Source of the DNA: Bacteroides sp.
Lineage (GTDB): Bacteria > Bacteroidota > Bacteroidia > Bacteroidales > Muribaculaceae
Length of the DNA stretch: 64,000 bases
Assembly: GCA_014802045.1 (NCBI GenBank)
Contig: JAAVDA010000022.1
Span: forward strand, 9,539 to 73,538
Direction: 5' to 3'
In this document: positions 11,555 through 15,293 of the stretch, piece by piece
Layout: the number at the start of each line of letters is the position of its first letter
How positions within the stretch are numbered: the stretch's first letter is position 1
Program-made: the position numbers and the translations under genes
The notes under the pieces: generated by a model
Told to the model about the DNA's origin: nothing
Databases searched by the model: none
What the model saw: only the letters and a program-made list of their open reading frames with translations

Positions 11555-13927
11555 TCAGTCAAACACTCCTTCGATTGAGGCTTCTTCAGCATCGGAGTCG
11601 TAGTCTTGTGACACTCCGTAATATTCTTTTTCGCAAAGACTCACATCTGAGGGGAATGCAAAGCGTGAGTCCTGACTGTAGGGGAGGGTGTGGTCTGCGT
11701 AGACTTTGCTCATGAACCGTCCGTAGATAGGGAGAGCCATCGACGCGCCCTGACCGTTGGCCATATTGTTGAAGTGGATGTAGCGTTCTTCTCCTCCCAC
11801 CCATGTGCCTGCCACGAGCTGAGGCGTAAAGGCCATGAACCATCCGTCGGCATTGTAGTTGGTCGTTCCGGTCTTGCCTCCGGTCTGTGCGGTGATATTG
11901 TAGGGCGGACGGCGTATGCGGTTGCCGGTGCCTCCGTCCACCACGTTGAGCAGCATAGACAGAATGCGCCAATAGGCGGTCTCTGATATGACCTCGGTGT
12001 GGCGCGGGGTGAATTCTGTGATTATATTCCCGTTGGAGTCGGCTATGGCTGTGACGAAAAGGGGGTCTACTCTCATGCCGTTGTTGGCAAACGCTGTATA
12101 GGCCGTCACCATTTCCTTTACCGAGATATCGGCCGGACCGAGACACAGCGACATCACAGGGTCGAGTTTGGAGGTGATGCCGAAATTGTGCATGGTGCGC
12201 ACGAGCGATGCCGGCGAAAGCTGGCTTATGAGGCGTGCTGAAATCCAGTTGTTGGAGTTGGTGAGAGCCCAACGGAGGTCTACCATCTCGCCCACTCTGG
12301 CCGAACCTGAATTGCGGGGTATCCATTCGCGACCGTTCTCATCGTAGAGCACCGGCTGCTCATTGAGAAATTCATCGCAGGGGGTGAATCCCTCTTCCAT
12401 GGCATAGGTGTAGAGAAACGGTTTTACTGTAGAGCCTATCTGACGGCGACCGGTAGACACCATATCATATTGGAAATATTCGAAGTTAGGGCCACCCACA
12501 TAGGCTTTCACATGACCGTTCACTGGATCCATAGCCATGAATCCGGTGCGTAGAAAATGCTTGTGGTAGAGAAGCGAGTCCATCGGCGACATCAGGGTGT
12601 CGATAACTCCTGCATAGCTGTAGACTTTCATATCTCTCTTCGTGGCAAACTCCTTCTCGATCTGGGTGTCGCTCGCACCGGCTTTTTTCATCATGCGATA
12701 TCGATCGGTCTGCTGCATGGCGTGCTTTATTAGCGCGTCAACCTGCTCCTGGCTCACTTCGCTGCGGTTGGTGGAGTAGGGGGCGCTTTTGGTGCCTTTT
12801 TTCTCGCGGAAGAAAGCCGGTTGGAGGGTCTGGCTCATATGTTCCTGCACGGCATCTTCGGCATACTGCTGCATGCGTGAGTCGAGAGTGGTGAAAATCT
12901 TGAGTCCGTCGGTATAGATGTCATATTTGGTGCCGTCGGGTTTCGGATTTTTTTCAATCCAGCCGTAGAGAGGGTTGTTGGCCCAAGCGATAGAGTCGTC
13001 GGTGTAGCGCTGGCGGTCCCACGATGGATAGTCGGAGGCCACAGGCTTCTTGGCCCTGAGCATGCGGCGCAACTCCTCGCGGAGGTAGGGGGCGGGGCCC
13101 TCCTTGTGGTCCACACGGTGGAAATCGAGTTTCAGAGGAAGATTCTTGAGCGAATCGAGCTCGGCGCGGGTGATCTTGCCGTTTTTCTCCATCTGTTCCA
13201 GCACAACATTACGGCGTGCGCGGGTGCGCTCCGGCTGTCTGACAGGATTGTAGACCGAGGGATTCTTTACCATTCCTACGAGGGTGGCGGCCTCTTCTAT
13301 CGTGAGGTCTTTCGGTGCCTTTCCGAAATAGACATAGGCTGCACTCTTTATGCCGACAGCGTTGTAGAGAAAGTCAAACTGATTGAGATACATCTTCAGA
13401 ATCTCCTCCTTCGAATAGAATCGTTCCAGCTTCACGGCTATCATCCATTCGATCGGTTTCTGCATCACACGGCTCATGAGGCCGTTTGATTCGGGCGAAT
13501 AGAGCTGCTTTGCGAGCTGCTGGGTGATGGTGGAGCCGCCGCCTGCATTGCGCTGACCCATGAGTAGGGTCTTGAACGCCACTCGTGCAAGAGCTCTCAC
13601 ATCTATACCGGAATGCTCTTCAAACCGAGCGTCTTCGGTGGCGATGAGTGCATCGACCACATTCTGCGATATTTCGTCGAAATCGGCATATACGCGGTTG
13701 CCGGTGTTGCGGAAATATCGTCCGAGTTCCTTTCCGTCAGCTGAATATACAACTGAGGCAAATCTGTCTGACGGATTTTTGAGTTCTTCTACCGGGGGCA
13801 TATATCCTATTGCACCGTTATACACGGCCCAGAAAAATACAACCGCACCTATAATCAGTGCGCCAAACACACACCACATTATTAAAATCACGCTCTTCTG
13901 GCGCAATGTCAGTTTCTCGAGTTTCAT
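11555..13927 (-). CDS. Class A penicillin-binding protein (PBP1A-like; GT51 transglycosylase + transpeptidase)
   Basis: 790 aa; 'ATEDARFEEHSGID', 'GGGSTITQQLAKQLY', transpeptidase 'STGRRQIGSTVKPFLY', 'SNN', 'GGKTGTTNYNADGWF'. Confidence 0.95.
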   Translation of the reverse strand: MKLEKLTLRQKSVILIMWCVFGALIIGAVVFFWAVYNGAIGYMPPVEELKNPSDRFASVVYSADGKELGRYFRNTGNRVYADFDEISQNVVDALIATEDARFEEHSGIDVRALARVAFKTLLMGQRNAGGGSTITQQLAKQLYSPESNGLMSRVMQKPIEWMIAVKLERFYSKEEILKMYLNQFDFLYNAVGIKSAAYVYFGKAPKDLTIEEAATLVGMVKNPSVYNPVRQPERTRARRNVVLEQMEKNGKITRAELDSLKNLPLKLDFHRVDHKEGPAPYLREELRRMLRAKKPVASDYPSWDRQRYTDDSIAWANNPLYGWIEKNPKPDGTKYDIYTDGLKIFTTLDSRMQQYAEDAVQEHMSQTLQPAFFREKKGTKSAPYSTNRSEVSQEQVDALIKHAMQQTDRYRMMKKAGASDTQIEKEFATKRDMKVYSYAGVIDTLMSPMDSLLYHKHFLRTGFMAMDPVNGHVKAYVGGPNFEYFQYDMVSTGRRQIGSTVKPFLYTYAMEEGFTPCDEFLNEQPVLYDENGREWIPRNSGSARVGEMVDLRWALTNSNNWISARLISQLSPASLVRTMHNFGITSKLDPVMSLCLGPADISVKEMVTAYTAFANNGMRVDPLFVTAIADSNGNIITEFTPRHTEVISETAYWRILSMLLNVVDGGTGNRIRRPPYNITAQTGGKTGTTNYNADGWFMAFTPQLVAGTWVGGEERYIHFNNMANGQGASMALPIYGRFMSKVYADHTLPYSQDSRFAFPSDVSLCEKEYYGVSQDYDSDAEEASIEGVFD

Positions 13928-13931
13928 TTTG

Positions 13932-13939
13932 CAAAGTTA
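13932..13939 (-). promoter_or_regulatory. Bacteroidetes -7 box (TAACTTTG) at the PBP1A start
   Basis: CAAAGTTA on + strand; matches TAnnTTTG consensus; very close to the annotated ATG. Confidence 0.5.
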
Positions 13940-13962
13940 CAACATTCCTCATCTATTATATA

Positions 13963-14380
13963 AGACCCCGTTCCCCAATATTTGTTAACGCAGAGGTCGC
14001 ATATCTCCGAGTGATTTTTGTGATGGAACGAAGGAGCGATGGGGATCCATCGTGTCTGAGTGACAACACAAAAAGCGCTGTAGATATGGGCCTGTAAGGT
14101 AACTTTTTCACATGGTTCTACAACAAAATGTACGCAAATTGAGTGATGTAATTTAATGATTTTTAGCTTATCGCAGTAACTTGGGATATAAAACAGATCT
14201 GACACATACACAAATATCACTATTTTCATCTATCCGTGTTCCCATCGCCTCGGCCAATCGTCACGCATCTGCGTCCTCTTGCTTCGGTCACGATGGGCCT
14301 CCATCGCTCCCTCACTGCGCGAGCACAGCGGCATAACGCTTGACCGCCTCAGCATTAACAAATATTGGAGAAAGGGGTCT
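13963..14380. repeat. Putative noncoding element with symmetric terminal inverted repeats (MITE/REPIN-like candidate)
   Basis: agacccc[g/t]tt[c][c/t]ccaatatttgttaa[c/t]gc[a/t]gagg at the left end, its reverse complement at the right end; hairpins CGATGG-N4-CCATCG at 14037-14052 and 14291-14306, each starting 74 nt in from its end. Confidence 0.75.
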
Positions 14381-14497
14381 AATAAAACTTAGAAATCTTG
14401 TCAGTTTGATATTCGATGCTTTAGAAGGTGTCGTTCAAATTCGATAATTTGAGGTGGAAGTTTGAAACTGTGTTTTTTGTCTTTCGCGATATTTTAC

Positions 14498-14537: not shown

Positions 14538-15293
14538 ATGAGAAAGAATATAGTAGCAGGCAACTGGAAGATGAACACCACTCTCAATGAGGGTGTCGGT
14601 CTGGCCAAGGATGTCAATGAGGCTCTTAAGAATGTGACCCCGAAGTGTGACGTGGTAATCTGTGTGCCCTTCACTCATCTTGCTCCCGTGTGTGGCGTCA
14701 TCGACCAGCAGAAGCTCGGTCTTGGTGCTGAAAACTGCGCCGACCACAAGTCTGGTGCATATACCGGCGAGGTGAGCGCTCCGATGGTAGCTTCTACCGG
14801 TGCAACCTACGTTATCCTTGGTCACTCAGAGCGTCGTCAGTATTATGGCGAGACCGCTGAAACCCTCAAGGAAAAGGTGCGTCTGGCTCTCGACAATAAC
14901 CTTACTCCGATTTTCTGCATCGGCGAAGTGCTTGAGCAGCGCGAAAACGGCAGCTATCTCGATGTTGTGAAGGGTCAGATTGAAGAGGCTCTTTTCGATC
15001 TCTCTGCCGAAGATTTTTCCAAGCTGATTCTCGCTTACGAACCTGTGTGGGCTATCGGCACCGGCAAGACTGCCACCGACGACCAGGCTCAGGAGATGCA
15101 CGCTTTCATCCGCAGCGTGATTGCCAATAAATATGGCAACGAGGTGGCCGACAATATGAGCATCCTCTATGGCGGCAGCTGCAAGCCCTCAAATGCAAAG
15201 GCTCTCTTCGCCAAACCCGATGTGGACGGCGGCCTTATCGGCGGCGCTTCGCTCGACGCTGAGTCGTTCATGGGCATCGTAACCGCTTTCTGA
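14538..15293 (+). CDS. tpiA: Triose-phosphate isomerase
   Basis: 251 aa; '[14 protein letters not shown]', '[15 protein letters not shown]', '[15 protein letters not shown]', '[12 protein letters not shown]'. Confidence 0.98.

Follow-up and report, generated by a model that had tools for sequence, protein, structure and literature searches.

An IS5-derived MITE with a conserved hairpin behind each terminal inverted repeat in a Muribaculaceae-type genome

MITEs are usually viewed as passive deletion derivatives and are defined by their terminal inverted repeats (TIRs). RNA structure at the end of an insertion sequence (IS) is known from IS10/IS200-type elements, in which 5' structures arising from incoming transcripts act against read-through. 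Rolling-circle plasmids have single-strand origins in which a long, strand-specific hairpin pairs imperfectly and keeps conserved internal loops. IS5-derived MITEs are already known in Bacteroidales; those of Porphyromonas gingivalis, together with BrickBuilt, carry the TIRs of ISPg1/3/4/9 of the IS5 family (PMC4596501). Long stem-loops are predicted for BrickBuilt, but they derive from 23-nt tandem repeats, no transposase remnant is present, and a covarying 120-nt hairpin is not described (PMC4596501). In Neisseria, the Correia elements or NEMIS are short MITEs present in many copies, and RNase III cleaves their folded transcripts at the TIRs (PMC10969869). Target duplications are ANT in bacterial IS5 and TWA in PIF/Harbinger (PMC4482050). 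A literature search, with most subscription journals outside its scope, returned IS5-type MITEs in Porphyromonas and nothing on the hairpins described here.

The locus considered here lies in a 64-kb window, the whole stretch of DNA that was analysed (64,000 nucleotides). It is a 416-bp element that is almost certainly a MITE, a gene-less internal-deletion derivative of an IS5-family insertion sequence. With the IS5 family (DDE_Tnp_1; NCBIfam NF033580, transpos_IS5_3) it shares the parent transposase family, the flanking TIRs, and a short AT-rich target duplication, which in this element is TWA. Like the P. gingivalis elements, it is a Bacteroidales MITE that borrows IS5-family TIRs. Its IS5 clade has noncoding ends of ~150-265 nt with a covarying hairpin in each, whereas the compact ~0.9-kb IS5 relatives examined, which occur in the very genomes that carry the element, have no hairpin. 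In contrast to Correia elements and NEMIS, in which the TIRs themselves pair, the window element has a separate hairpin behind the TIR that persists when the TIR changes. Unlike the IS10/IS200-type structures, this hairpin is present at both ends, is kept in gene-less MITEs, and leaves the start codon of the transposase uncovered. Unlike the rolling-circle single-strand origins, which it resembles in structure, it is not on a plasmid replicon.

The element was first described from the letters alone as positions 13963-14380 (418 bases); once the TAA duplication is removed, the element proper spans 13964-14379 (Table 1). The sequence-only reading had put the identity of the inverted ends at about 30 of 34 positions, and exactly 30 of 34 were found. 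They are the sole inverted pair of at least 29/34 identity in the whole window when arms within about 1.2 kb of each other are scanned, and a repeat search reports matches of 41 nt (85%) and 30 nt (80%). The two CGATGG-N4-CCATCG hairpins stand as that reading had placed them, at 14037-14052 (loop GGAT) and 14291-14306 (loop GCCT), each 74 nt from the element end. On the other hand, the 36 divergent positions between the matching blocks are not noise, as they form the 5' strands of two long, independently folding stems. The claim that no transposase is present holds for an intact gene; a relic of the first ~11 codons survives, and its translation corresponds to GYTTDLT and GYSTDLT in intact relatives. 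The transposase gene has been lost, and the left structured arm corresponds to its 5' noncoding region.

Table 1. Coordinates of the features of the element in the window
Feature	Position	Strand	Evidence
Target-site duplication TAA, left copy	13961..13963	.	TWA (TAA/TTA) duplications around most copies at other loci
Left terminal inverted repeat GACCCCGTTCCCCAATATTTGTTAACGCAGAGG	13964..13996	+	30/34 vs right end; TIR type 30/30 in full-length IS L092
Left structured arm, ~120-nt rod-like inward hairpin	13984..14105	+	Covariance model R2 117.8 bits; MFE -50.4 kcal/mol, z -6.0; covariation
Conserved distal module GAAGGAGC-stem-GUGUCUGA	14032..14060	+	Near-invariant across 86 diverse copies
Transposase N-terminus relic LGYKTDLTHTQ	14181..14213	+	Translation compared with intact relatives
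Right structured arm, same hairpin inward	14236..14359	-	Covariance model R3 115.4 bits, R2 50.9 bits; MFE -51.0, z -3.3
Right terminal inverted repeat	14347..14379	-	Repeat search and inverted-pair scan of the window
Target-site duplication TAA, right copy	14380..14382	.	Sequence; pattern over copies

The flanking genes both point away from the element: one, on the minus strand, encodes a penicillin-binding protein and has its start codon at 13927, and the other, tpiA, is on the plus strand and starts at 14538. The MITE is upstream of the former gene, mrcA (PBP1A), and 35 bp from its start codon (window 13928-13966). A Bacteroidetes-type -7 box, TAACTTTG, persists on the minus strand upstream of mrcA, but the -33 region falls at the boundary of the element; mrcA expression may therefore have been altered by the insertion.

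The mobile nature of the element, which had been suggested from its ends, is borne out by its copies, TIRs, TWA duplications, transposase relics, and parents. Matches to the element occur in 18 of the 61 genomes searched. Further related copies, the shortest of 135 bp and the longest of about 706 bp, are present in its own genome, and copy interiors are variable across the genome and the genus; an ordinary single-copy intergenic region, which had been considered at the outset, does not describe this locus. The copy termini read AGACCCC...GGGGTCT, mostly with TAA or TTA duplications alongside, from which it follows that the element proper begins with GACCCC and that the target-site duplication is TWA. 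Longer copies retain broken pieces of a DDE transposase that match DDE_Tnp_1 (PF01609, E 8e-9 and 7e-10) and the IS5-family model NF033580 (E 9e-22 for one fragment, which is under the whole-protein cut-off because it is fragmentary). The parents are near-complete or intact 1.0-1.3-kb IS5-family ISs with DDE transposases and the same two structured ends. Near-complete copies are L060 and L081; L092 (1182 bp) has a long open transposase frame, both arms, and both TIRs identical at 30 of 30 positions to the type in the own genome. A transposase gene with matching ends, proposed earlier as something to look for, is therefore found. Related ends also occur in ISs with long open transposase frames (L088, L090, L091, L093, L094, L096, and L101). 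Together, the parents with matching ends, the transposase relics, and the target-site duplications identify the element as an IS5-family MITE. The mrcA-tpiA adjacency is not conserved in relatives, and a look-up for the window copy gave no clean empty site.

Two more copies lie on the same contig (C22), within about 3 kb left of the window start. One (L048:6501-7206) is 706 bp long and has transposase relics, and the other (8583-8717 of L048) is 135 bp long and has lost most of both hairpins, with the TTA duplication still present. The near-complete IS copies L060, L061, L066, and L081 of one genome (G007) appear to have a common change of transposase frame near the FGHWRN/KYNAFRSW stretch, for which inherited damage and a programmed frameshift are the options.

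The whole ~120-nt arm behind each TIR forms a single long rod that reads inward from both ends. When left arms (20 elements) and right arms (17) are aligned inward, each set gives one such rod. In the left arms, 42 pairs are formed with 92.8% of cells paired and a covariation score of 0.389 (0.166 when shuffled), and both sides change in 19 of the 42 pairs. In the right arms, 90.4% of cells are paired, the score is 0.338 (0.185 shuffled), and both sides change in 24 of 43 pairs. None of 500 shuffles reaches the observed covariation, and pairing is destroyed by sliding the partners. Among 89 diverse copies, 89.9% of cells are paired, the covariation score is 0.704 against 0.205, both sides change in 40 of 42 pairs, and double-changed cells number 1068 against 316 +/- 17 in shuffles; this alignment is fitted to the model and hence leans to structure, and its slid versions pair just 39-47% of cells. 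The covariance models in use are R2 and R3; the first model, R1, was dropped since one stem was misregistered. The distal core, GARGGAGC-stem-GUGACYGA, is near-invariant in 86 diverse copies while the stems diverge, and in the predicted fold its loops can be read as two tandem GA/GA (G.A/A.G) internal loops with two base pairs between them. The fold of a single strand is very probably under selection. Some copies are without one or both hairpins (L091, L089, and L114), and thus the hairpin is not strictly essential.

Of 114 distinct matches, 101 fold more stably on the inward strand, and in the right arm of the window the opposite strand has a folding z of only -0.2. In the two arm alignments G.U outnumbers A.C by 59 to 16, and in 86 diverse copies by 167 to 56; these counts take only pairs with a Watson-Crick majority, which lessens the bias from pairs picked by inward-strand folding, and part of the G.U excess stems from that choice. 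A cruciform in double-stranded DNA should lack a G.U/A.C bias, and therefore the selected form is the inward strand, as RNA or as single-stranded DNA (ssDNA). Several known structures were compared with the hairpin and rejected. A Rho-independent terminator has no consistent U-tract after the hairpin to support it, a kink-turn would require a 3-nt bulge whereas the loops of the predicted fold read as symmetric 2x2 GA, and an inward promoter in the TIR relies on a TTTG that is not conserved between TIR subfamilies. Rfam scans of the window region and seven relatives at relaxed thresholds gave chance matches only and no family at its curated score.

The left-arm covariance model has matches in 232 of 397 genomes of the host family (about 58%), which, with Candidatus Amulumruptor and Muribaculaceae records among the named relatives, is probably Muribaculaceae, and in 7 of about 292 other Bacteroidales after family members in that sample are set aside. 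The own genome has 10 matches, one of which is the opposite strand of an arm, and some genomes have 80-99 each. In one of these, a complete one-contig genome (G144; L309-L320), the 99 matches are mostly two-armed MITEs of about 350 bp. The transposase tree groups the hairpin-ended ISs in a single clade that has 13 rows and support of 100/99, and its one hairpin-less member, L114, lost the hairpins through deletions at both ends. Matches beside IS5 transposases of other clades (L110, L113, and L123) were considered as hairpin-bearing ISs and rejected, as they lie in adjacent elements. The other matches are for the most part MITEs of about 160-340 bp whose hairpin starts about 21 nt from the TIR end; among 40 examined, the start is at exactly 21 nt in 20, and TWA duplications are identical in 21. 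The TIRs of these other hairpin MITEs (AGAAACTGTTTAAATT, AGAGTGTGTTTACTTT, AGAGGTTGTTTAAAAA, and others) are similar or identical to those of hairpin-less, compact ~0.9-kb IS5 relatives. Moreover, G144 (L321-L328) has near-identical single-hairpin interiors enclosed by either of two different TIR pairs, AGAGATTGTCTAAA and AGAAACTGTTTAAA, which looks like a joint switch of TIR specificity at the two ends. The same interior with different TIR pairs, and the TIRs of other clades on hairpin MITEs, indicate a modular hairpin that persists through changes of TIR.

The account that probably fits best as a whole is an IS5-derived MITE with a selected single-strand hairpin, for which RNA is the favoured form. 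An IS5-type DDE transposase supplied in trans would recognise the TIRs and insert the MITE at TWA sites, and the ~120-nt inward-strand hairpin kept inside each TIR would be selected to fold single-stranded. The folded strand would most likely be RNA, formed when transcription enters the element; a protein might bind its tandem-GA core, an RNase III-type enzyme might cut it, or both, and the folded RNA could make the element tolerable to the host or shield it from read-through transcription. The preference for RNA comes from the analogy with RNase III cutting of Correia transcripts and from the inward polarity, by which any incoming transcript would meet a strong hairpin first. A role at the RNA level is put forward tentatively, as G.T wobble and G.A pairs form in ssDNA too. 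Since full-length ISs of other IS5 clades do without the hairpin, its benefit is probably not the catalysis of one transposase; the hairpin is dispensable in related compact ISs and contains no gene, and it most likely acts via a host factor.

The main rival, judged possible and rather unlikely, is a strand-specific ssDNA site that is used when one strand of the element is exposed in copy-out or replication, in the manner of a single-strand origin, a primosome assembly site, or a transposase accessory site. Because both hairpins of a two-armed element point inward, either strand has one good hairpin near its 5' end. Strand-specific wobbles agree with such a site, as does the form of the hairpin, which is long (~120 nt) and imperfect and has conserved internal loops. 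It also agrees that the hairpin is independent of transposase clade and of the direction of neighbouring genes: orientation in 40 copies shows no bias (left-flank genes 19 sense, 20 antisense), which gives no support for a host-adopted RNA role and leaves room for one in ssDNA. However, many MITEs have only one hairpin, and about 13 single-hairpin copies in a complete one-contig genome are spread over the two strands at comparable positions (origin not mapped). To our knowledge, IS5 elements have no established single-stranded intermediate, which also counts against an ssDNA site.

Quasipalindrome correction occurs in bacteria and yields paired changes, and a functionless, ordinary MITE could thereby keep its near-palindromic arms paired through template switching. 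This is improbable, since mutational pairing should erase internal loops, whereas the tandem-GA loops and core are near-invariant while the stems diverge; the excess of G.U over A.C and the retention of the module over different TIR families also speak against it. The REPIN-like element that the sequence-only reading had mentioned, which would be mobilised by a RAYT (Y1 transposase), shares the short, multicopy, intergenic palindromic units, but the TIRs with TWA duplications and the IS5 DDE parents with identical ends mark a DDE-type element, and its units are 120-nt rods against 20-40-nt REPs, so a REPIN is very hard to sustain. Equally implausible is an invertible segment or a regulatory RNA gene of the mrcA-tpiA region. 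The inverted ends and structured arms would suit either, but copies occur at unrelated sites with the arms as part of the element, and the mrcA-tpiA neighbours differ among relatives. Inversion finds no support, and of the earlier suggestion of a structured RNA, the strongly covarying single-strand structure of each arm stands, while a separate gene does not, the arms being part of a mobile element.

For the selected hairpin, RNA or ssDNA, a wider proposal is conceivable, although somewhat doubtful: a widespread, host-family-specific module of Muribaculaceae-type genomes that spreads inside IS5-type MITEs of many TIR types, switches TIRs with the hairpin kept, and stands at both ends of an autonomous element in one IS clade. 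The module would be selfish and act in cis, through recognition by a factor of the host or of replication. The TIRs differ from copy to copy, but the 120-nt hairpin and its protein-site-like core persist. The retention of the hairpin despite TIR changes, its presence in about 58% of the family's genomes, and the up to ~98 copies per genome suggest that the structure aids the spread of small transposons regardless of transposase. The hairpin thus offers a defined motif for testing limits on MITE success, and represents a large family of structured nucleic acids with no Rfam match. Two further loci differ in form. L226 (G602) has tandem hairpins with a similar GAGGNGC...GUGACGA-like core and no obvious TIRs, and L223 (G599), outside the main family, is a 117-nt unit that forms one long palindrome as a whole (AGGCTTTAGAAGGGGT...).
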